From Scytolyngbya sp. HA4215-MV1 (GTDB lineage Bacteria > Cyanobacteriota > Cyanobacteriia > Leptolyngbyales > Leptolyngbyaceae): 64,000 bases of DNA. Under the pieces are notes generated by a model. That model was not told the origin of the DNA and made no database searches. It saw only the letters and a program-made list of their open reading frames with translations. Positions 25,905 to 45,217 of this stretch are shown here, piece by piece; within the stretch, counting starts at the first letter, position 1; each line of letters starts with the position of its first letter. A program made the position numbers and the translations under genes. The DNA lies in NCBI GenBank assembly GCA_019359045.1, contig JAHHIA010000012.1, forward strand, positions 124,001 through 188,000, written 5' to 3'.

Positions 25905-26558
25905 CTATTTAATAGTTAAAAACAAATGAAGAAGCCTGAAAAGAAAACTTCGGCTATGCTGACGATGAGAAGTTCCATAAAGGTCTGGTATTGAACCAAA
26001 ACTTGTATCTACAGCCCAATCCTCTTCCATGCAAGTCTCTTGACACTTTTGCGTTAGATAGTCATGAATCAACTTTACACAACCGTTTCCATCACCATCG
26101 ATTACAAATCCTATCATTGCAGCCCAATCATGACCAGGACTATATTTACCAGTCACAAAGCGCATCACCCCATCATCCACATATTTTTTAGCTAAACGCT
26201 TGTTTTTGGAGGTAACCCTTTTACACTCCATACCAAAATACTCAGCCTCATCAAAGCTATAGATGATTTTGATATCAATGCGACCTTCAGGTTTATTGGA
26301 CATAGGCGAAGAGCGAGTCCCAACCTCTTCCTCTATTCGGATCTGCTTCTTTAAGCGTGGGCGACGGTTCTTCTCTAAAGTCATTTCCCGCCCTAAATGA
26401 CCTGCGATTTCGGGTTCAGTGCTGCTGATACTCACTTTTCCACTGGAGAGAACACACGACCAACCGACCATTGTGATATCTAAGACGGTTGCAATGATAT
26501 TTAGCGGCAAGTTGATAACTAATTCTCCAAATGAAGTAGGTTCATCCAATGGCAGCAC
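25905..26558 (-). CDS. Putative PD-(D/E)XK nuclease, third gene of a restriction-like operon
   Basis: This 217-aa protein has a nuclease-like core at about 92-150: G-R-I-D-I (D95), then Y-F-G-M-E-C-K-R (E111 and K113), i.e. a D-(15)-E-x-K pattern, followed by a helical stretch and D-W-A-A-M-I-G-F-V-I-D-G. It starts with GTG inside the 3' end of the methyltransferase gene (17-bp overlap), so translation is coupled. I infer the cleavage component of a modification-linked defence system. The family itself is not one I can name. The residues before 60 have some hydrophobic character. DNA is A+T-richer than the flanking core genes. Confidence 0.6.
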   Translation of the reverse strand: MLPLDEPTSFGELVINLPLNIIATVLDITMVGWSCVLSSGKVSISSTEPEIAGHLGREMTLEKNRRPRLKKQIRIEEEVGTRSSPMSNKPEGRIDIKIIYSFDEAEYFGMECKRVTSKNKRLAKKYVDDGVMRFVTGKYSPGHDWAAMIGFVIDGDGNGCVKLIHDYLTQKCQETCMEEDWAVDTSFGSIPDLYGTSHRQHSRSFLFRLLHLFLTIK

Positions 26559-29500
26559 GGTTTACCCTCAAATGTTCAGAGAGAATAAGGTCAGCATCAT
26601 TTAACCCAGCAGAGCGGCTCCAGTGACGTTTCTGAGCAGGCTTAACAATATAAATATCTTGCCCACTATAGATTCGCAAATCCCGACGTGTAAAAATTCG
26701 ATCAGCGATCTGTTGGGGTAATCGTTCAGCAATTCGATTTAAAACTGCCTTTAAATCCTGGGCTTGAGTAATCTGAACAATATGTTCACGTCCAGGTACA
26801 GGTAAAAAACTAAACTTAACTACACTTAAAGGAGATTGATTGACTTCTATCACATCAGCAACTAATACTCTTTCTCCTAAAGCTTGAAGAAAAGGTTGAA
26901 TTACGCTAATCAGCTCCATAGCATACAGTTTTAATTCAGAAGTATGGGGTTTTTGCAGAACTGCTGATTCTTCTCGATTCATATATAAATCGATAGTTAT
27001 GCTAATAGTATCCTTGACCAAAGTTTGCTCTGTTTCATCTAAATCATAAAGACTGAATACAGCAGCATCAAGTTCTCTCTTTAAGGCTGGATAGGTTAAG
27101 GTATTATGATGCTCAAATAATCGCCTTTCCAAATTAATGATTTGAGAGACAATATGTGCATTATCTTCAACAGGAAAGGGGACTGGAAGACGCGCTATAT
27201 CCTGCATCATCAGTGTCTTGCGAGCAATTCCCCATGATGATGCCGTCATAAACAAGAAGTAATTTGTCAAAGAAGAGTTAATGATTCCATTTAGATAATG
27301 AACTAAATATTCAGAGTTCTCTGAAATCGAAAGGCCATAATAGCTCTTCGGATACATCACATCTTCACTACAGAAAGCTGAGAAAACACCTGTTGACTCA
27401 ACTTTCTCAGGAACTATAAGGAGCGGAGCTTTATATGTTTCTTCATCTCTTGGAGCTTCTAACCTTAAATATGGGAGAACATCCAACTTGGTTACATCAA
27501 TGATATATTTTGGCATAACTCTAGAAGGAAGCCATTTCTTATCCTTTAGATATTGAGGTACTTCTTTACTTTGATTGCCTCTCAAAAAACCACTTTTAAA
27601 GGTATTTCCCGCTACTTGCTCAATACTTGGTAGGGAATCTCTTAGCCTCTGAACTAACGCTAAATCTCTAGCACTTCCCCATGTGGCAACTTTGAGCATA
27701 TCTGGATCTGATGCCATGCCCCAAACGGGTAGCTTTTTAATATCTTCAGTCCCAATTTCTAGAATTCCATGTTTTCTGTAATCTCCAGAACGTTGTGGAC
27801 AAACAAAGTAACAGAAATCCTTTGATGTTGAGCGACACCCTTCTGCGATTAAGATAATTGCAGGAGCTTCAGAGTTAGGAAATAAATCTTCTCTATAAAG
27901 CTTGGAAAGATTAATAATTATCCTTGGCTTAAAGCGCATTAAGAGAGCTTCTTTTGCAGTCTTAGCTTCTGAAAAATTACTGAAAAACGCTCTTCCATGT
28001 AAAATCAAACCAATTTGTGTGTTTTCATTGGAAAAGTCACCAGCACGCCAAAGAAATGCTTGATCGGGTGGATCTCCATAAGCTAGAGGATATCCCTTCG
28101 GATATTCTTGTTCGGGACGCTTACGTTTGCAATATATTGAAGCTGACTTCGTAAATTTGGACTTAGTCCAAGGAGGATTCCCTACAATTGCATGAATTTC
28201 CTTATTAGCAAGAGCGGTTACTCGGTTAAAATCAGCATTCTCGTTGAAAGCATCACAAGCAAATAAACTTCTACCAATTAAAGGCTGGAACTTTAAATTG
28301 CTTGCCAGGTATCTTTCCTGCTCCAACTCATGATCGAGTTCTAGGGCAGTGAGGTATAGACTAAATGCAGCAATCTGAATTGCTTGTGGTTCAATATCTA
28401 CACCATAAACTTGATTGTAAAGGGTATCACGAATAAGTTGTCGAGACGGCTCCTCTCCATTCGCACAACGCTTTACTACTAATCTCCTAAGAGATTCCAC
28501 TAAAAACAAGCCTGAACCACAGGCTAGGTCTAAGATTTTTGCATTACCAGAAAGTTTCTTAAAAACCTCATCAAGCACTAAATCAACCAAGTTAATGGGT
28601 GTGTAGTGTACGCTTGTCTCTGCTGCTGCTGCTGCATCTTTAGAATACAGAAAATTCTCGTAAATAGAACTGATTAGTTCTACAGGAATCACTTTGAAGT
28701 CATAGGCTCGCCAGAGCCGTCCTTGACCTGATTCAATTTCTGTTGTTCCACCTACTAAGTCTTTAACGATTTCGAGATGGCTGATTTCATAGGAATTTTG
28801 TGCATTACCAGACGAAGCTGGAAACATATCTCCATTGAATGTGACTTGCAACCATTCAAATAGGTTCTCAGTAGCTGAGACATTATCCAATACATGAGCA
28901 AAGGTATCAACGTTGAAGCGGGATTGGAAAAACTGTGTATCTAAAATGCCTCGATCTTGAAGATAGGCAACAAAGATTGATCGCATTAGAAGAGCATGAG
29001 CAATCTGAGGCTCTAGCCCTTTTGCTCTAAGCTTTTTCTCAGCCGCTTGCAAATCTTCTACCAGGACATGATCAACTCGTTTTTTCCGGTCAATCTGTCT
29101 TGCATTCTGCCACTTCCAAAATTCCCCAGATTCAATCTGAAGCCGACTAGCATATTCGTTGAGTCGCTTCAAACTCGCTTCCGTATTTTCAAAAAGTTCA
29201 ATTAAATTGGATTCAGGATTATTTTCTGTGGGTTCGGAGTAGCAGTTGTATAGACGCACGCTTGTAGGTGTCACAACCCACAGCATCGGTGCTAAACCAT
29301 GATTCCAAGAAAGTTTGTGCAGACGTGCCAACTCTCGTGGATCAGGATCAGATTGTTCTAGTTGGGAGAAGTAAATGCATGGTGATCCAGATAGCTCAAA
29401 TATCGCTGTAGCATTGATTTGTTCTGGATCAATAACAGCACTATATTTAATACGCTTTTCAAGTTGCTGATTATTATTGCGGAGTGACTCAGCTTCTATT

Positions 29501-29592
29501 ACACCTGAAGTAGGCACACCATTTCTGTAGAAGCCCGTTTCCTCCATCACACGTTGATAAAGAACTTCTGTTGCAGATCTTCTGGAAGCCAT
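26542..29592 (-). CDS. Eco57I/type IIG-like N6-adenine DNA methyltransferase (restriction-modification protein)
   Basis: This 1016-aa protein has the gamma-order N6-adenine methyltransferase motifs: S-adenosylmethionine loop I-L-D-L-A-C-G-S-G (353-361) and catalytic N-P-P-W (472-475). Y-T-P in the preceding segment (H-Y-T-P-I-N-L-V-D) is also typical. Residues 600-850 look like a target-recognition region (A-R-L-P-V-P-F-P near the end). The N-terminal 150 residues resemble a type I/IIG restriction N-terminal domain (F-E-L-S-G ... L-W-V-V-T-P-T-S-V-R-L-Y-N), but the expected E-x-K nuclease triad is not visible. A Shine-Dalgarno GGAGG overlaps the stop region of the MerR-like gene 2 bp upstream. 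It likely methylates host DNA while the downstream nuclease cuts unmodified DNA (inference). Confidence 0.8.
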   Translation of the reverse strand: MASRRSATEVLYQRVMEETGFYRNGVPTSGVIEAESLRNNNQQLEKRIKYSAVIDPEQINATAIFELSGSPCIYFSQLEQSDPDPRELARLHKLSWNHGLAPMLWVVTPTSVRLYNCYSEPTENNPESNLIELFENTEASLKRLNEYASRLQIESGEFWKWQNARQIDRKKRVDHVLVEDLQAAEKKLRAKGLEPQIAHALLMRSIFVAYLQDRGILDTQFFQSRFNVDTFAHVLDNVSATENLFEWLQVTFNGDMFPASSGNAQNSYEISHLEIVKDLVGGTTEIESGQGRLWRAYDFKVIPVELISSIYENFLYSKDAAAAAETSVHYTPINLVDLVLDEVFKKLSGNAKILDLACGSGLFLVESLRRLVVKRCANGEEPSRQLIRDTLYNQVYGVDIEPQAIQIAAFSLYLTALELDHELEQERYLASNLKFQPLIGRSLFACDAFNENADFNRVTALANKEIHAIVGNPPWTKSKFTKSASIYCKRKRPEQEYPKGYPLAYGDPPDQAFLWRAGDFSNENTQIGLILHGRAFFSNFSEAKTAKEALLMRFKPRIIINLSKLYREDLFPNSEAPAIILIAEGCRSTSKDFCYFVCPQRSGDYRKHGILEIGTEDIKKLPVWGMASDPDMLKVATWGSARDLALVQRLRDSLPSIEQVAGNTFKSGFLRGNQSKEVPQYLKDKKWLPSRVMPKYIIDVTKLDVLPYLRLEAPRDEETYKAPLLIVPEKVESTGVFSAFCSEDVMYPKSYYGLSISENSEYLVHYLNGIINSSLTNYFLFMTASSWGIARKTLMMQDIARLPVPFPVEDNAHIVSQIINLERRLFEHHNTLTYPALKRELDAAVFSLYDLDETEQTLVKDTISITIDLYMNREESAVLQKPHTSELKLYAMELISVIQPFLQALGERVLVADVIEVNQSPLSVVKFSFLPVPGREHIVQITQAQDLKAVLNRIAERLPQQIADRIFTRRDLRIYSGQDIYIVKPAQKRHWSRSAGLNDADLILSEHLRVNRAAIG

Positions 29593-29594
29593 CG

Positions 29595-30125
29595 CTAGTT
29601 AACCTCCTCAGCGACAATTTCCTGATATGCAACGTCATTCAAAAAAACTCCAGATCGCTTATCAAAGTCTAAAACATGATGTTTCTGTGCTTCTTTCCAT
29701 AGATCCGCAATCACATCACCGACGGGTCCCACTTCTTGAATAGCAACCTGCCCTTGGTTCTTACCAGATGCTTCCAAAACTAACAAACCGAAATCTTTCA
29801 AATCCTCAATCAAATAAAGCTGTGCATTAACGAAAACAAGGCTATGAACGAAAAAAGAAGGTTTATGCTCCTTTATCTTCAAAAACTCAAGTATTTTACG
29901 GATTTCCTGAAGCGACAATTTTTCCCGTAGGCGCTCAATCGTTTTTATTTCAAGGACTTGCTGCCAACTGTAGATAACCTTGGGGTGCTTGGAATTGCCG
30001 AACTTCTCAGGCACAACAAGCCCAGTCCGATCCAGATAGCTTAACCTACCTGAACTTATTCCAGTTAAAGCTAGAGCCTCCTGACGAGTAAACCCACTGA
30101 CCACAGCAATCCCTTGATATAGCAC
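29595..30125 (-). CDS. MerR-like HTH protein, first gene of the methyltransferase operon
   Basis: This 176-aa protein has a MerR-type winged helix at about 12-75: G-F-T-R-Q-E-A-L-A-L-T-G-I-S-S-G-R-L-S-Y-L-D-R in pieces, then Y-S-W-Q-Q-V-L-E-I-K-T-I-E-R-L-R and L-S-L-Q-E-I-R-K-I-L. The C-terminal 100 residues form an alpha/beta domain of unknown type, not a metal-binding tail. It is followed by the methyltransferase after 2 bp. The GTG start at 30125 lies only about 8 bp after TATAAT, so a downstream GTG (at 30104 or 30101) may be the real start. It probably autoregulates through the inverted repeat upstream. Confidence 0.7.
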   Translation of the reverse strand: MLYQGIAVVSGFTRQEALALTGISSGRLSYLDRTGLVVPEKFGNSKHPKVIYSWQQVLEIKTIERLREKLSLQEIRKILEFLKIKEHKPSFFVHSLVFVNAQLYLIEDLKDFGLLVLEASGKNQGQVAIQEVGPVGDVIADLWKEAQKHHVLDFDKRSGVFLNDVAYQEIVAEEVN

Positions 30126-30136
30126 TCCACGTTAGC

Positions 30137-30179
30137 ATTATACGCCGTTGTTTAAATCTAGAGTAAGGATTTAAACAAC
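30137..30179 (-). promoter_or_regulatory. Promoter with a perfect 12-bp inverted-repeat operator
   Basis: On the minus strand TATAAT (30142-30137) lies just before the MerR-like gene. Immediately upstream is GTTGTTTAAATC and its exact complement, with a 9-nt spacer (30147-30158 and 30168-30179), covering the -35 region. A symmetric site over the -35 element in front of a regulator gene suggests autorepression or MerR-style activation. About 230 bp between it and the hydrolase remnant hold nothing else recognisable. Confidence 0.65.
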
Positions 30180-33522: not shown

Positions 33523-35169
33523 CTATTGGATGCTACAGTCTACAAGTCTCGATGCGAGAGAAGAGAATCCCACTACCCCCCCCCAATTCCCCTTAGGGAG
33601 GTGTCCCATAGGTGAAGGGAGGTGTCCCATAGGTGCTGAGGTGCTATAAGTTACCTGATCTAAGGAGATGTATTTGTTGTTCATCCTCCAACCGATGCGA
33701 TCGCAAAACTTTTCCCAGATCTTATCACCTGGATAGTTGCCATCTAGCTGGGCACCACAATCCAGATAAATTTGTTTTTGTACACTGAAACCAAACCTGC
33801 CCTGGCTGTAATGCACCCAGAGGGCATCGATCGTCTGCAAGTCCTGACAAGGAAAATTTAACAGATCCTTTTTCTCAACATCCCACCATTTTTCTTTGCC
33901 CATCGCTTTCAGCATCTGATCTGCGGTTTCCTGATCTGCCTCTTTCCACTTACCCGCTGCCAGGAGTTCTTGCAGGTGGCGGTAGTCAACCCCCTTTTCT
34001 GATGCCAGAGAGATGAGGGTGGCAGGAACAGGGGTGGCAGGGGCAGATTTTACCGCCGGGGTTAGGGTTGGTGGCGGTGGCGCAGGTGGTTGGGTCAAGT
34101 CAATGCCATGGGTGGTGAGCACTGAGGCAATATCCTCATCTCGCAGCTTTAAGACTCGCTGAAAATATTGCAGATCCTCAAGGCTGGTTGCGCTTAACTG
34201 CGGCTCCTCCGCCAGGGTCTCTTGCACCGCTTGCTCAAACTCGGCAAGCTTTGCCCAAAAGACCCGATAAGGCTGCAAAATCTCCTGGGTAATTGCCTCC
34301 ACTTCTGCATCGGACAACCCCAACTCTTGAGACCGAAATTTCAATGCACGTCGATCCACGGGTGAAAATTTGCCGCGCTTTTGTTTGGCGCGTTCATCGA
34401 TCTCTTTGCGAAACACCAGCCGGGGGTCGCCCTGGGGAGCATGGGCAATCAAAATTTTGTAGCCTTCCCGCACCGCATAAATCTCAGGCTGCATGGTGGG
34501 AGCTGCTTCCTGCACCTTTTCTTTGGCATATTCGTGCAACTCATCAACAGTGATTTTGCCATCGTCATCCCGATCGGCAGCCCCTGTTTCCAGTCCCTGC
34601 ACCAGATATTGGGTGTAGATGCTCACACCTGCGGTTTCGTAAGACACTTGCGTGGCAGTGGAAGAGGTCAATACCGCGCGTCCTTCCCCTCCTAGCTGAG
34701 TTTTCACATCGATCGCGGCATCATCCTTCGCCTTCATATCCTGGGCAAAGGCACCACTAAAGCAACAATCCAAAATCAACACTTGCCGTTTCGATTTGCT
34801 CTGGCTCATGTAGCCTTGCAAGGCGGTTGCCGGAACCGCCGTACTGGTGCGAATGCGTCCCTGGGGGGTCTTTGCCGTAATGCGGGTGGCAAGGTAAAGG
34901 GTGCCATGGTCATCCCGCACCCCATGACCAGAGAAGTAGAGCAAAATCAGATCGTCTGGTGTGCGGTTTTCGCTAAACAGTTGTTCGATCGCCATTTCCA
35001 TGCCAGTGCGATCGGGATTGGGCAACACGTCAACGGCATCAAATCCACCCACCTGGGGATCTTGTAAGACGCGCTGCATCCGCTGGAGGTCTTCCTGAGT
35101 TCCCGGTAACCCCGCCAATCCCTCGCCATATTCACTCACTCCAATCAGCAGCGCAATCTTTGCCATCAA
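33523..35169 (-). CDS. Caspase-like protease (peptidase C14 / metacaspase type) fused to a GUN4 domain
   Basis: This 548-aa protein has a caspase-fold domain (1-245) with catalytic His82 in Y-F-S-G-H-G-V and Cys136 in L-I-L-D-C-C-F-S-G. An EF-hand-like loop, D-R-D-D-D-G-K-I-T-V-D-E (199-210), may bind calcium. Residues about 255-390 are helical with a Pro-rich linker, and 397-518 form a complete GUN4 domain (W-K-E-A-D-Q-E-T, N-F-P-C-Q-D-L-Q-T, F-G-F-S-V-Q-K, A-P-M-G-H-L-P). The last motif is tandemly duplicated (P-M-G-H-L-P-S twice, 21 bp). GUN4 binds Mg-porphyrins in chlorophyll synthesis; here it may be a ligand sensor or adaptor (inference). The start ATG overlaps the upstream stop by 4 bp, so it is coupled to the EACC1-like gene. 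Confidence 0.85.
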   Translation of the reverse strand: MMAKIALLIGVSEYGEGLAGLPGTQEDLQRMQRVLQDPQVGGFDAVDVLPNPDRTGMEMAIEQLFSENRTPDDLILLYFSGHGVRDDHGTLYLATRITAKTPQGRIRTSTAVPATALQGYMSQSKSKRQVLILDCCFSGAFAQDMKAKDDAAIDVKTQLGGEGRAVLTSSTATQVSYETAGVSIYTQYLVQGLETGAADRDDDGKITVDELHEYAKEKVQEAAPTMQPEIYAVREGYKILIAHAPQGDPRLVFRKEIDERAKQKRGKFSPVDRRALKFRSQELGLSDAEVEAITQEILQPYRVFWAKLAEFEQAVQETLAEEPQLSATSLEDLQYFQRVLKLRDEDIASVLTTHGIDLTQPPAPPPPTLTPAVKSAPATPVPATLISLASEKGVDYRHLQELLAAGKWKEADQETADQMLKAMGKEKWWDVEKKDLLNFPCQDLQTIDALWVHYSQGRFGFSVQKQIYLDCGAQLDGNYPGDKIWEKFCDRIGWRMNNKYISLDQVTYSTSAPMGHLPSPMGHLPKGNWGGVVGFSSLASRLVDCSIQ

Positions 35170-37097: not shown

Positions 37098-40000
37098 CTA
37101 ATCTTCAACCGCCCCCAATGCCAACAAAGAAGCCCTCTGCGCCTCCGTCAACCCCGTTGCACCTGTAATATTCATCCCCTCATAGGGTCTGGGTGCCCTT
37201 AAGATTGCCAAACACTCACCGGTCTTGACATCCCACAGGCGAATCGTTTGATCATCTGCCCCACTTGCGAGTATGGCTCCATCAGGGCTGAAAGTAACGA
37301 ACCATACCCGATTTGCATGACCTGGAAGAACGTGGAGGCATTGATGGGTGCTCACATCCCATAGACGAATCGTATGATCTGCACTGCCACTCGCGAGCAT
37401 TGCTCCATCAGAACTGAAAGCAACGGACCATACCCGATTTGCATGACCTTGCAGGATATAGAGACATTGATGCGTGCTCACATCCCACAGGCGAATTGTG
37501 TGATCTGCACTACCACTTGCTAGCGTGGCTCCATCAGGGCTGAAAGCAACGGACCATACCCAATTTGCGTGACCTTGCAGGACTTGGAGGCATTGATGCG
37601 TCTTCATATCCCATAGGCGAATCGTATGGTCTGCACTGCCACTCGCTAGCATTGCTCCATTGGGGCTGAAAATAACTGACCATACTCGATTTGCATGACC
37701 TTGCAGGACTTGGAGGCATTGATGGGTGCTCACATCCCACAGGCGAATCATGTGATCTGCACTACCACTTGCTAGCGTGGCTCCATCAGGGCTGAAAGCA
37801 ACGGATCGTACCGAATTTGTATGACCTTGCAGGACTTGGAGGCATTGATGGGTGCTCACATCCCACAGGCGAATTGTATGGTCGTCTGACCCACTCGCAA
37901 GCATGGCTCCATCGGAACTGAAAATAACTGGACACACCCAACTCGCATGACCTTGCAGGACGTGGAGGCATTGATGTGTACTCATATTCCATAGACGAAT
38001 CGTGTGATCTGCACTGCCACTCGCTAGCATGGCTCCATCAGGGCTGAAAGCAACCGACCATACCGAATTTGTATGACCTTGCAAGATATGGAGGCATTGA
38101 CGTGCTTTCACATCCCATAGACGAATCGTTTGATCTTCACTGCCACTGGCTAGCATGGCTCCATCAGGGCTGAAAGCAACTGACCACACCGAATTTGCAT
38201 GACCTTGAAGGACATGAAGGCATTGATGTGTACTCATATTCCACAGACGAATCGTATGGTCTGCACTGCCACTGGCTAGCATGGCTCCATCAGGGCTGAA
38301 AGCAACCGACCGTAACCAATTTGCGTGACCTTGCAGGATGCGGAAACATTGATGCGCGCTCACATGCCACAGACGAATCGTGTGATCTGCACTGCCACTC
38401 GCTAGCATAACGCCATCGGGGCTGAAAGCAACCGATCGTACAGAATTTGCATGACCTTGAAGGATTTGGAGGCATTGATGCGTACTAACATCCCATAGGC
38501 AGATCGTTTCATCATTACTGCCACTCGCGAGCATGACTCCATCAGGGCTGAAAGCAACGGACCATACCTGATCTGTATGACCTTGCAGGATATGGAGGCA
38601 CTGATGCCCTTTCACATCCCACAGACGAATCGTTTGATCTGCACTGCCACTCGCTAGCGTGGCTCCATCGGGGCTGAAAGTAACTGACCACACAGAATTT
38701 GCATGACCTTGCAGGACGTGGAGGCATTGATGCGTACTCGAATCCCACAGGCGAATCGTTTGATCATCTGACCCACTCGCGAACATGGTGCCATCGGGGC
38801 TGAAAGCCAGTGACCGGACCCAATCAGTATGTCCGCGATAGGTTATTAAGGATTGCCCATCTGCCACTTGCCAAACATGGATATTTCCATTGCTATCACC
38901 GGTTGCCAACAGTTGTCCATCCGGGCTAAAGGCAACAGCGAAAACGCTTCCAAACGTGTGGGTTAGGGCAGGACTAACAAAATGTGAGTTGGCGAAGTTA
39001 ATCGAATATAAATGCTTACGCTTGAGATATGCCTGACGAATAGTCAAGTGAGAAAAATTATGGTTTCTTGAATCGAAACTCAAATGACAGAACATGTTCA
39101 AGAGATTTCCGGCGATGTACCCTGAAGATAATTTTGGTTGGCTCCGCACAACTTGCAGCAGGGTTACTAGCTGTTTTTCTATCTGATCTAAGCTATCCAC
39201 GATCGGTTGTAAAATCAATCGAACTTGGGTTTCTCGCACATAGTCTTTTGCAGTTGCTTTAATCAGAGCATGACGATTGAAGAGCAAAATCTGTTGAGTT
39301 TGGATCTCCTGGGCAACTTGAGTAACAAACCTGTCCGTCACATACTCCATCACCACATTTTGCAGCGTAAACCCGTCGTCCACCCGTTCAATCAACGATC
39401 GTCGTCGCAAAGATTCCAGAATGGTTTGCAGATGTTGGGTGGAGATGGGTTCCAGCAAATCTTCCTGGAGTTCAGCCAGTTGCACAGGTTCTCGATTGAT
39501 GGCGAGCCAATACATCACCGATCGTCCTTCTGCCGATAAACGATCGAACTGTTCTTCCAGCACATCCCGAATATCGCCAAACACGATCGACCCCTGGGTG
39601 AGAAACTCGGTGATGTTGCCGCCGTAGAGGTCTTGAATGTTGGTCGCAGCAATTTTGAGCGCTAAGGGATTTCCGGCGTAGCGATCGAACACCACCTGCC
39701 ATTGCGGATCAGCAGCCGACAGTCCCTCTGCCCGAAAAATCTCCTGCCCATCCGTTGCTTCTAAACCTTGCAGGAGCAGCGATCGTACCGGACGATTGCG
39801 TCCCTCCTGCTTCGCCACCTCCTTCGGTTTTTCCCGACTGGTAATCACCAAACAACTCTGGTGCAGCGACTCCCCCACCCGTTGCAACAACGTGCCATAG
39901 CCTTCATACCCTTCCCGATACTGTCCCGCCTGGGTGCCCCCCTGCAAAATCGCTTCGGCATTGTCCAACACCAGCAAACAACGAGCCGCCTGGAGATAGT

Positions 40001-40643
40001 GAACGAGTTGAGTGACCGCTTCCCCCACCGTATTGGGCAAGTCTAGCTGTTGTTGATTCGAGAGAAATTTGATACAGTCCGCCAGGATTTTTTCCACAGG
40101 TGGCGCTTCCCGCAGACTGCGCCATAGGATGTACTGAAACTGGTTTTGAAGGGTTTGAGCCAGTTTTACAGATAAAGCGGTTTTGCCGATTCCACCCATG
40201 CCCAGTAGCGCAATCAGGCGACAGGGTTGGCTTTGCCGCTCCGTTGCAGCATCGCCCACAATCCAACCTGCCAGATCGGTTAACTCTTGCATGCGTCCGT
40301 AAAAGATAGAAACATCCGGTGCTTCTCCCCAATCGATGCGGGGCTCTCTGGTAGGTCTTTGCTCCCCTTGGGCAATGGACTTGCCGTAATCATCCTGGCA
40401 GAGTTCTAGGTTAAAGGCTTGAAAGAACCGTTCCAGCGTGCGACGATCGACCCGCTCCTCACCATCCAGAACTTTGGCGACGGTGCCTGCATCCAATTGG
40501 GTCAGAACCGCCAAGGCTTCGATCGTCAACTTTTCACCAAAGTTCTCCTGCTCCTCCCAGGCGGCGATCGCTGCTTGAAGTTTTTGCCGTCCAGCAGGCG
40601 TGAGTACAACCCCCCGTTTGCGTTTGGCTTGTCCTGAGGTCAT
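37098..40643 (-). CDS. NB-ARC STAND NTPase with 14 WD40 repeats
   Basis: This 1181-aa signalling ATPase has three parts. Residues 1-95 form an N-terminal HTH-like domain ([10 protein letters not shown], then [13 protein letters not shown]) of the kind found in cyanobacterial vWA-MoxR/STAND proteins. The NB-ARC has P-loop [10 protein letters not shown] (148-157) and L-V-L-D-N-A-E (Walker B, near 224-230). From about 562 to 1150 there are 14 WD40 units of 42 residues (G-H-A-N[11 protein letters not shown], then D-H-T-I-R-L-W-D-V), enough for two seven-bladed propellers. The propeller is expected to sense a ligand and release NB-ARC. No effector domain is recognisable. The unusually similar units suggest recent tandem duplication. 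Shares its N-terminal domain with the NB-ARC-TPR protein at 42878-45217. Confidence 0.88.
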
Positions 40644-42877: not shown

Positions 42878-45217
42878 TCATTTTGAATTTTGCATTGACT
42901 GCCTCACTCTCTCCACCTGCTTTGGTGCTTCCATTTCAGTAAAGAGCTGAATTGCTTTATGAAAACTGTCTTGACTTCTTTTAAGTTCATCCATCGCTTG
43001 GTAAGTTAAACCAAATTGATAATAAACTTGGGCTATATCATTTTTTGCTTCAATTTTTTCTAAAATATCTAATGCTTCTAGATGGTATTCCAAAGCAAAT
43101 TTAAAGTTAGCTTGCTCTCGGTATAACTCTGCTAATCCATTAACAGCTCTTGCTTTCACCTGGGGATAATAACTAATTTCAGCATATTTGACAGACTGTT
43201 CATAGATTTCAAATGCTTCTTCAAACATCTTCAAATTTTTATATGTTGAGCCAAGAAAAAATAAACCATAACCAGTAGTGATTCGATTTCGGCTCCTAAT
43301 CCTTTTACAAGCTTTTTCAATAAAGTCAAATGCTTTCTGCTTTCTCTCAAAATTCGAGTACAAAAAAGCAAGTGCGATAAATATGAAAGCTTTTGAATCC
43401 ATTTCATCAATATCTATATAAAGCTTTTCAAAAATATCTAAAGCATCCAAAAGTTCCCATAATTCTATTTTACATATTCCTATAGCAGCCAAAGCTCCTA
43501 CTTTCTTTTGTTTAAATTTTCTAATATCAGAATCATCAAGTTCATTTGCTAAATTCAAGAACTCAATACAAATATTTTTTCCTTTCTCATGAAATCTAAT
43601 TGCTTGATGAATTTTTCCTGTTATTTGATACGAAACACCCAGTAATCCATAAAGTTCACTTTTAGCATAACTGGGACTGGTTTTATCTATAATCAAATGG
43701 ATAGCTGATGTAAGTTGCTGAAATATACCCAGTTTGTAAAATGAGCGTCCAAGACGTTCTGGATCTGATAAATTGCAAATTCGCTCTTGCAGTATTACAC
43801 TTCCAGCCTTCTCAAGATTATTGATTGCTGTCCAATGATAGTAAGACTCGAATGCTAATAGTGCATCATCTATTGATGTAATGGTTTTTATTTTTTCTGT
43901 CCAAAACTCTGCTGCTTTTGTATTTGCTACTTCCCAATCGTTACTTGTTCTTAAACGACTAATTGCCTCTATCCTAATCACTGGATGTAACCAAAACTCT
44001 CCATTCTCAAAATCAATCAACGATCGATCCTGCAACGACTTAATCACTCGTCGATGGCGGTTTTCTGGGACATCCCAGAGCAGGCAAAACAAGCCTTCAA
44101 TGGGAACCGTTGGCACATCTTGATAGCGGTAACAACCCATGCGGCAGAGCAGGTTGTAGGCATCAGGGTCGAGTTGTTGCAGACGATCGAACTGTTTGGT
44201 GACTAAATCTTCCAGATCCCGTTCGATAAATAAGTCGTCTTGGTTGGCTTGCCAGTAGGCTTCCACATTGCCCGCAAAGTCTTCCAGAACCGCACCACTA
44301 ATGATGTCCATTGCTTTGGCATTCCCGCCATAAGCGTTATGTAACGCCGCTAGAGCGCCCTCACCCACAACCCCTCTCCCAGCAAGAGAGAAAGGCGTTA
44401 TTTGGATATTGCGGCTTTGGAAGAACTGTTCCCAGGCTGACACATCCAAACTTCTCAAAGGGTAGTGCTGCACCGTGACATCGGCTTCTCGCAGGCGTTC
44501 TCGACTGGTGATTAAGGTAATCGACTGCAGGGTTGGATCACTCAGCACGCGCAGCAGTTCCACATAACGACGATGCGCTTCGATAAACTTGCCTGCCGAA
44601 TCTAATGCCGGTTCCAAGTTATCGATCAGAATACCGATACGATCGCTTTGCAGTTTGCGCTTGAGCCGATCGAGGGACACCCAAAACTCGCGTCCCGGTT
44701 CTTCCCCCAGTTGTCGCAGTTTCTCTTCAATCAATCCCTCGATCGAGGCAATGTCCTTGGTCTCCTTAGCAATGGGAAACTCCAGAAAGGAGCCAAATTT
44801 CTGCTGGAGATACTTCCGTGCCAGTGTGGTTTTACCCACACCCCCTCTTGCCTGAATCACAATCACTTTGGCATTGCGACTGACCAATGCGTTGAGATCA
44901 GCGATCGCTTCATCCCGTCCGACAAAGTTGGGGTCAGCGGTTGCCGCGATCGCCTGGTTTGCCGGAATGTGGTCGCTATCCTCTAGCGTCAGGTCAAAGG
45001 ACTCAAAACAACGAGCGATCGTCCGTTTGTCTGACCCTCGACAATCCAGGACATTTTTCACCGTCTCTGGATCTAGCCCGGTCAACTCCCCCAGCCGTTC
45101 CAGCGTGTATTTGCCGCCCGCATTTTCTTCGGCTTCGTGCGATCTCAGCCTCTCTCGTAGCTTCTTTAATCCGTCGGTGGTAAGAATCCGCGCCCGATTC
45201 CGTTTGGGTGAATTCAT
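42878..45217 (-). CDS. NB-ARC STAND NTPase with C-terminal TPR repeats
   Basis: This 779-aa protein has residues 1-85 resembling the N-terminus of the WD40 STAND protein at 37098-40643 (I-L-T-T-D-G-L-K-K-L, L-T-G-L-D-P-E-T-V-K-N-V-L, D-K-R-T-I-A-R-C-F-E). NB-ARC P-loop A-R-G-G-V-G-K-T-T-L lies at 123-132 and I-L-I-D-N-L-E-P-A-L near 196-205. From about 470 to 775 there are tetratricopeptide-like repeats (A-Y-N, Q-Y-G-L-T-Y-Q-A-M-D and similar), probably the ligand or partner sensor. At codons about 274-287 the frame holds P-F-S-L-A-G-R-G-V-V-G-E-G-A, which is a dispersed repeat inserted in frame (44358-44395). No effector domain is visible. Codons in the TPR half are A+T-richer than in the NB-ARC half. 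Confidence 0.88.
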   Translation of the reverse strand: MNSPKRNRARILTTDGLKKLRERLRSHEAEENAGGKYTLERLGELTGLDPETVKNVLDCRGSDKRTIARCFESFDLTLEDSDHIPANQAIAATADPNFVGRDEAIADLNALVSRNAKVIVIQARGGVGKTTLARKYLQQKFGSFLEFPIAKETKDIASIEGLIEEKLRQLGEEPGREFWVSLDRLKRKLQSDRIGILIDNLEPALDSAGKFIEAHRRYVELLRVLSDPTLQSITLITSRERLREADVTVQHYPLRSLDVSAWEQFFQSRNIQITPFSLAGRGVVGEGALAALHNAYGGNAKAMDIISGAVLEDFAGNVEAYWQANQDDLFIERDLEDLVTKQFDRLQQLDPDAYNLLCRMGCYRYQDVPTVPIEGLFCLLWDVPENRHRRVIKSLQDRSLIDFENGEFWLHPVIRIEAISRLRTSNDWEVANTKAAEFWTEKIKTITSIDDALLAFESYYHWTAINNLEKAGSVILQERICNLSDPERLGRSFYKLGIFQQLTSAIHLIIDKTSPSYAKSELYGLLGVSYQITGKIHQAIRFHEKGKNICIEFLNLANELDDSDIRKFKQKKVGALAAIGICKIELWELLDALDIFEKLYIDIDEMDSKAFIFIALAFLYSNFERKQKAFDFIEKACKRIRSRNRITTGYGLFFLGSTYKNLKMFEEAFEIYEQSVKYAEISYYPQVKARAVNGLAELYREQANFKFALEYHLEALDILEKIEAKNDIAQVYYQFGLTYQAMDELKRSQDSFHKAIQLFTEMEAPKQVERVRQSMQNSK
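44358..44395. repeat. CCCTCACCCACAACCCCTCT-type dispersed repeat inside the NB-ARC coding region
   Basis: CCCTCACCCACAACCCCTCT then CCCAGCAAGAGAGAAAGG matches the widespread cyanobacterial CCCTCACCCCC-AACCCCTCTCCC repeat type, with an internal hairpin CTCTC...GAGAG. It keeps the reading frame and adds about 13 residues to the NB-ARC domain. Confidence 0.6.

Follow-up and report, generated by a model that had tools for sequence, protein, structure and literature searches.

A probable restriction-modification operon with a predicted separate PD-(D/E)XK nuclease behind a type IIG-like methyltransferase in a cyanobacterium

Restriction-modification systems with separate genes for restriction (R) and modification (M), C-type regulators and the exchange of recognition regions are already known. 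According to PMC12707154, C genes were first recognised in the PvuII and BamHI systems. Separate R and M genes have been proposed to come from a duplicated IIG-like gene, with the methyltransferase later losing its nuclease domain (PMC6158711). Here we describe an operon found in a 64,000-nucleotide stretch of Scytolyngbya sp. HA4215-MV1 (hereafter, the window), in which a MerR-family regulator gene is followed by those of a large N6-adenine methyltransferase, of a family filed as type IIG, and a small protein with a predicted nuclease fold. We consider it likely that this is a restriction-modification operon with a separate nuclease. The three open reading frames (ORFs), of 176, 1016 and 217 residues (MerR, methyltransferase and small protein, respectively), lie on the minus strand at the coordinates given in a preliminary description made from the sequence alone:

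30149–30177, unstranded: putative operator ahead of the MerR gene, TGTTTAAA-N13-TTTAAACA, the central part of a perfect 12+12 dyad at 30147–30179 (dyad search, conservation)
29595–30125, minus strand: candidate MerR-family controller of the operon (Pfam MerR_1, E 1.3e-7; start likely at about 30104)
26542–29592, minus strand: N6-adenine methyltransferase that includes a target-recognition region (PADLOC REase_MTase_IIG; AlphaFold pLDDT 88.2; VIA matches)
29098–29592, minus strand: methyltransferase residues 1–165, N-terminal domain in the type IIG nuclease position (T62, Y74 and S76 where D...E-x-K is expected)
27793–28605, minus strand: methyltransferase residues 330–600, core with DLACGSG and NPPW (motif conservation, 45 sequences)
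27178–27675, minus strand: methyltransferase residues 640–805, target-recognition region (weak TaqI_C match; the most divergent stretch in close pairs)
25905–26558, minus strand: 217-residue predicted PD-(D/E)XK nuclease with a BamHI/OkrAI-like fold, candidate trans cleavage subunit (model, conservation)
26220–26276, minus strand: putative nuclease catalytic motif D95...E111-C-K113 (conservation in 52 sequences)

As we propose it, the 1016-residue protein would use its target-recognition region to find a DNA sequence at which it methylates adenine, as its family and fold suggest, and the 217-residue endonuclease, whose fold and residues come from prediction and conservation, would cut DNA without that methyl mark. 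The N-terminal domain of the window methyltransferase would be a worn-out relative of the nuclease domain that type IIG enzymes use in cis, so that cleavage would be supplied in trans. The MerR protein would bind the conserved dyad ahead of its own gene, as a controller timing expression.

The MerR and methyltransferase genes are separated by 2 bp and the methyltransferase overlaps the last gene by 17 bp, exactly as the preliminary description had it. The motifs that it had read in the two proteins are also in place: DLACGSG at residues 355–361 and NPPW at 472–475 of the methyltransferase, and D95, E111 and K113 of the small protein, spaced as D-x15-E-x-K. The operon has a G+C content of 40.2%, compared with 49.2% elsewhere in the window, and none of the 42 GCGATCGC sites of the window falls inside it. 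G148, a cyanobacterial genome of the same class, also carries the operon.

With the methyltransferase as query, 194 related genomes yielded ten places with ORFs of about 1000 residues, the window included, and in all ten a small-protein homologue of 211–232 residues comes directly after it. When the threshold was relaxed, a match at E 1e-24, which is a second piece of one of the ten places, was followed by matches at E 1e-11 that cover the protein in part only. Searching in the other direction, with the small protein, matched seven of the 194 genomes; six have the methyltransferase, and in the seventh, G179, the gene sits right at a contig end with its upstream neighbour out of view. A second collection comprised the best 80 of 383 methyltransferase relatives, retrieved by methyltransferase alignment alone and spanning cyanobacteria, planctomycetes, proteobacteria, archaea, bacteroidota and others. 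Among the 5662 ORFs scanned in these loci, the small-protein profile matched one ORF in each of 78 of the 80, which therefore have adjacent methyltransferase and putative endonuclease genes, as in type II systems with separate R and M. The first version of this profile included four proteins picked by position (L024–L027); a profile rebuilt from seven independently found small proteins gave the same 78 of 80 and matched the other four as well (E 4.5e-61 to 3.4e-13). The nuclease gene is directly 3' in 74 of the 78, from -130 to +60 bp relative to the end of the methyltransferase gene; in 36 the two genes overlap by 4 bp. The four other placements are L081 (+130 bp), L092 (a long ORF call with a 376-bp overlap), and L097 and L104 (truncated methyltransferase ORFs). 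The two loci missed by the profile are L044, at a contig end, and L100, which has a PemK/MazF gene in its place. A contig scan with the single 217-residue sequence as query found no relative.

The five plasmid loci opened all have a nuclease profile match directly downstream (E 2.9e-69 to 1.1e-14), annotated as hypothetical or, once, as a Fis family regulator. A phage-record collection gave no match. Among viral contigs (IMG/VR), 21 encode relatives, and the nuclease is present in 9 of the 11 best; two of these nine are the same sequence (L205 repeats L204), and one of the two without it is cut in the methyltransferase. By eye, the methyltransferase-nuclease pair of L204, L206, L207, L209 and L211–L214 lies in some cases near apparent phage genes, and at L208:3333–7093, where no nuclease appears before the contig end, a Dam-like methylase gene stands just upstream.

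One could argue that only the methyltransferase is functional, in epigenetic regulation, and that the nuclease is a decaying remnant. Genome G202 (L172) would suit this idea, having the MerR, the operator and the methyltransferase, with no nuclease found there (possibly an orphan methyltransferase). However, a nuclease gene kept in 78 of 80 loci, with near-invariant catalytic residues, makes this explanation highly improbable. At L100:4755–8296, the gene of a methyltransferase of the family, with a similar PD...Y-F-K domain, overlaps by 16 bp with a PemK/MazF-like gene that takes the place of the nuclease downstream. One observation counts against a plain restriction-modification operon: an interrupted methyltransferase ORF stands beside an open nuclease gene in 3 of the 80 loci (L030, L097 and L104), which should be intolerable unless these are sequence errors.

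Regarding the small protein, the window copy has no PADLOC or NCBIfam match at E<=1 and only one weak match below the cutoff in Pfam (Thioredoxin_4, E 0.06). Scanning 52 family members gave no PADLOC match, two unrelated Pfam models matching one member each (E 0.003–0.005) and one unrelated NCBIfam model matching one member (E 0.006); none of five members matched in PHROGs, and phmmer against PDB sequences gave no match. The AlphaFold model (pLDDT 93.1) has an alpha-beta-beta-beta-alpha-beta topology, and the top VIA-align matches are OkrAI (Z 9.0, root-mean-square deviation (rmsd) 3.6, 146 aligned), BamHI (Z 8.0, rmsd 4.0, 146 aligned), BglII (Z 7.7) and BstYI (Z 7.5). We aligned 52 sequences, the window protein and 51 of 54 representatives (alignment A3; L104, L092 and L067 were excluded as overlong or cut), which are 18–60% identical to the window protein. 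All 52 have D95 and K113, and E111 and E48 are each found in 51 (the exceptions being a Q and a gap, respectively). The predicted topology, the VIA matches and these residues agree with a PD-(D/E)XK core bearing D...E-x-K, and it is on them, not on Foldseek, that the fold call is based: Foldseek alone was non-significant, with no PDB match at E<=0.001. This negative speaks against the assignment, as do the tool's own note that a VIA Z near 8 can be reached by unrelated models and the scores of 6.6–6.8 given by unrelated Rep15 chains. According to these results, a PD-(D/E)XK fold is likely, and a metal-dependent endonuclease activity may be inferred from the model and its conserved residues. 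The nuclease that the preliminary description had placed in the third gene is thus supported by a model closest to restriction endonucleases, with a near-invariant active site. A separate idea, that this nuclease is a duplicate of the methyltransferase N-terminal domain, was unsupported (hhalign probability 0.3%); no sequence similarity is detectable between the two.

In Pfam, the methyltransferase is matched by Eco57I and N6_Mtase, and in PADLOC, type IIG models cover it nearly full length (E 5.8e-72). The preliminary description had not recognised the exact set of genes among named defence systems, and had listed a direct hit to a known type IIG system among the outcomes that would undo its proposal; such a hit was found, almost end to end. 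Our finding is therefore a re-reading of a catalogued family together with an uncatalogued partner. For the AlphaFold model of the 1016-residue protein (METHYLTRANSFERASE; pLDDT 88.2), VIA gave CamA (Z 21.0, rmsd 3.0, 454 aligned), M.BseCI (20.0), M.TaqI (17.8) and MmeI (17.6), and further down BpuSI (15.9, rmsd 11.6), BrxX/PglX (15.4), BsaXI (14.9) and DrdV (13.7). As in type IIG enzymes, an N6 methyltransferase core is followed by a recognition region, in which the TaqI_C match (E 0.0016) is below the model cutoff. In an alignment of 45 close relatives (A4; the window and 44 representatives), D355, C358, G359, S360, N472, P474 and W475 are present in all and P473 in 44.

The N-terminal domain of these 45 sequences mostly reads P-D...Y-F-K, and position 74, the E of E-x-K, is acidic in none of them. 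The window copy has T62, Y74 and S76 instead of D, E and K; it lacks the catalytic set, as had been noticed in the preliminary description, and thereby the intact nuclease motif in a single polypeptide by which type IIG enzymes are defined. Still, the methyltransferase could be a genuine type IIG enzyme that cleaves in cis, in which case the small nuclease would play an accessory part. PADLOC REase_MTase_IIG matches 44 of the 45 at E<=1e-30, and a second IIG model 37, a label that implies cleavage in cis. In addition, D62 is kept in 35 of the 45 and K76 in 42 (the window has neither), and E-A-K is seen in 4 of the 10 members of a more distant set, A1 (L012, L013, L024 and L026), where it sits three residues further on without a conserved D. 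These observations weigh against a nuclease acting only in trans, and because of the retained D and K and the distant E-A-K, activity in cis is possible within the family. Yet the acid of E-x-K is missing in 45 of 45, and the window copy has also lost the D and the K, so we consider cleavage in cis by this enzyme improbable. Since E-A-K persists in part of the distant set, the N-terminal domain, as read from the alignments, is degenerate in the window's branch and not uniformly across the wider family, and owing to this degeneracy the type IIG label probably misdescribes at least that branch. The earlier suggestion that cleavage was handed to the third gene is hence plausible, tempered by the D and K that most relatives keep, the distant E-A-K, the lack of similarity between the two nuclease domains and the PemK/MazF gene of L100. 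The four loci with E-A-K have the separate nuclease as well, possibly giving two nuclease sites per system. Another IIG-like family of the related genomes (six loci) shows PDIKLL...GDLKK, an intact PD...D-x-K set.

With respect to specificity, residues ~620–805 of the methyltransferase are the main difference in several close pairs, the recognition region being 57–70% identical where the nuclease is 81–90% identical. In L054/L046, the first three domains are 95–99% identical, the last domain 88% and the nuclease 90%, compared with 70% for the recognition region, and the pairs L033/L031 and L047/L042 show the same pattern. For pair statistics, sequences more than 97% identical were dropped, leaving 69 representatives, and pairs below 0.68 identity were dropped from the pooled local-dip and disjoint-pair analyses. 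Of 21 disjoint pairs, seven show a drop of at least 0.15 in recognition-region identity relative to the rest; subtracting the identity of the other domains from that of the nuclease gives a mean of -0.085 for these seven and of -0.074 for the remaining 14. Within the seven, the nuclease of L028/L034 stands out as clearly different (-0.245).

Since the divergence of recognition regions comes in blocks, with the nuclease about as conserved as the rest, the nuclease may be directed by the methyltransferase rather than read a site of its own, a question that we judge evenly balanced. The alternative is an ordinary type II system, with a nuclease that reads its own short site and a methyltransferase that protects that site independently. 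The best fold matches of the nuclease are type IIP enzymes, which, as BamHI does, recognise DNA themselves. Over all pairs, moreover, nuclease identity follows that of the recognition region more closely than the other domains account for (partial r 0.39 in 2346 pairs and 0.26 in 548), and nuclease residues 61–75 and 181–195 dip in pooled pairs when the recognition region differs; both results go against guidance by the methyltransferase. However, in six of the seven disjoint pairs with diverged recognition regions, the identity of the nuclease differs from that of the other domains by no more than 0.12, as it does in the 14 undiverged pairs. The covariation of the two nuclease patches with the recognition region was non-significant in the 21 disjoint pairs (family-wise p 0.49 and 1.0). 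A few residue changes could still switch specificity unseen. An ordinary type II system is therefore a sizeable possibility, though not the explanation that we favour. In IIG enzymes, restriction and modification change together when the recognition module changes, as stated in PMC4081073, a logic that would apply here only if the nuclease follows the methyltransferase.

Upstream of the operon, GTTGTTTAAATC-N9-GATTTAAACAAC (30147–30179) forms a perfect dyad. A dyad search allowing up to three mismatches matched once in the window and never in 100 shuffles, and the core occurs a single time in the 6.6-Mb genome (G000). We refer to the window arrangement as module A, and to that of a MerR gene followed by a 923–938-residue N6 methyltransferase and a 345–349-residue metallo-beta-lactamase (MBL)-like protein as module B (L133:3406–7745 and L173–L176). 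Upstream of MerR, the core dyad is exact in eight of the nine cyanobacterial module-A loci that hold it (the window, L028, L029, L031, L032, L033, L035 and L172; L034 retains part) and is found with at most one mismatch in five of five module-B loci. It is absent, at up to three mismatches, from the five weaker MerR homologues checked (L177–L180 and L184). The operator that had been claimed for this locus is thus supported by conservation, as a property of a MerR subfamily and not of this operon in particular. ORFs of close homologues begin MASGFTRQE or similar, so the MerR start is probably a GTG near 30104 rather than 30125.

We scanned 64 upstream proteins from a total of 81 loci (candidate ORFs in 62 of the 80, some of them clearly unrelated genes, plus the window and L050) and found MerR_1 in 32, the window included, HTH_3 in five and HTH_11 in two. 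A MerR search of 291 genomes gave 40 with a match at E<=1e-10. At an identity of at least 71% there are eight genomes, all with an adjoining methyltransferase, three in module A (G000, G148 and G202) and five in module B; a MerR specific to the operon is accordingly rejected, as orthologues also head module B. Inspection of 13 of the 14 weaker MerR homologue loci opened showed no N6-methyltransferase module behind MerR; L190 has a divergent methyltransferase of the present family. At L184:575–2397, a weaker homologue stands directly before what appears to be a cytosine-C5-methyltransferase-like gene, and L191 has a 920-residue methyltransferase and an MBL-like gene without MerR.

The L133 copies of module B have a Pfam N6_Mtase match and Lactamase_B just under the cutoff, and the MBL-like protein matches PADLOC RTasMBL, LmuA and Avs1a. 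The L133 module is syntenic with the window: in G003, module B lies between the same flanking genes as the operon, which blastn aligned to the window at 88.9% over 2117 nt and 81.8% over 1589 nt, compared with 68% over 456 nt for MerR. G011 has the peptidase flank with other neighbours and no operon. The sharing of MerR and operator ahead of two different modules suggests that effectors have been exchanged behind one controller, and replacement of the whole cassette is just as possible, because MerR has diverged more than the flanks.

This second module also bears on a BREX-like or methylation-sensing system without sequence-specific cleavage, in which the small protein would be a conditional effector that may kill the host. 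The methyltransferase fold does match BrxX/PglX, and the MerR subfamily also stands at the head of a module in which an MBL-fold protein, related to defence effectors, is the third gene product. By inspection, however, no additional partner gene recurs around the listed loci and no other BREX gene was recognised among the window ORFs (no profile search for BREX partners was run), and we think such a system unlikely here. A broader form of the explanation that we prefer, offered tentatively and with considerable doubt, is a widespread unnamed class in which specificity would reside solely in the methyltransferase, whose own nuclease domain has decayed or is decaying, and cleavage would come in trans from an exchangeable effector, PD-(D/E)XK here and MBL-fold behind the orthologous MerR and operator in relatives.

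Elsewhere in the window, 33523–35169 encodes a caspase-domain (Peptidase C14) protein with a GUN4-like tail, parts of which match PADLOC caspase and PD-T4-6 models. A WD40-repeat protein (37098–40643) and an AAA/NB-ARC-TPR-like protein (42878–45217) share, by eye, a similar short N-terminal stretch. The G+C content falls to 32–40% at 42–44 kb.

No published description of this gene set was found in the open-licence literature searched. What is new is that an uncatalogued family of putative nucleases almost always accompanies methyltransferases classified as type IIG, that the N-terminal domain of these methyltransferases is degenerate in the window's branch, and that one MerR and operator stand ahead of two effector types. 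A PADLOC family of single-chain type IIG enzymes thus appears to be half of a two-protein system, and annotation pipelines would miss the cutter because none of the four libraries searched (Pfam, PADLOC, NCBIfam and PHROGs) contains the nuclease. If the nuclease is guided by the methyltransferase, altering a single recognition region would redirect methylation and cleavage together, with the nuclease unfused.

By comparing the operon with known systems, we find that it resembles the type IIG/IIC enzymes BpuSI, MmeI and DrdV in its methyltransferase core, attached recognition region and N-terminal domain in the nuclease position, and differs from them in that this domain is without its catalytic acid in all 45 close relatives and a separate nuclease gene follows. 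With type IIP systems that have a C protein (BamHI, PvuII) it shares a predicted nuclease fold near BamHI and a candidate regulator with its own dyad, whereas its regulator is of the MerR family and its large methyltransferase is of another kind. As in type I and IIB systems (HsdRMS, BsaXI and BcgI), one recognition module would serve both activities and the methyltransferase core is related, but the operon has neither a helicase motor gene nor a separate S subunit. From BREX it has a PglX/BrxX-like methyltransferase fold (VIA Z of about 15), although the NCBIfam PglX models give this methyltransferase 26–43 bits against cutoffs of 400–900. The type IIH system AhdI has a methyltransferase built of M and S subunits, unlike the operon, where recognition and methylation lie in one polypeptide with a degenerate nuclease-like domain. 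Like the operon, AhdI has a separate type IIP-like nuclease beside an unusual methyltransferase (PMC4081073). The operon also bears on the evolutionary step proposed in PMC6158711.

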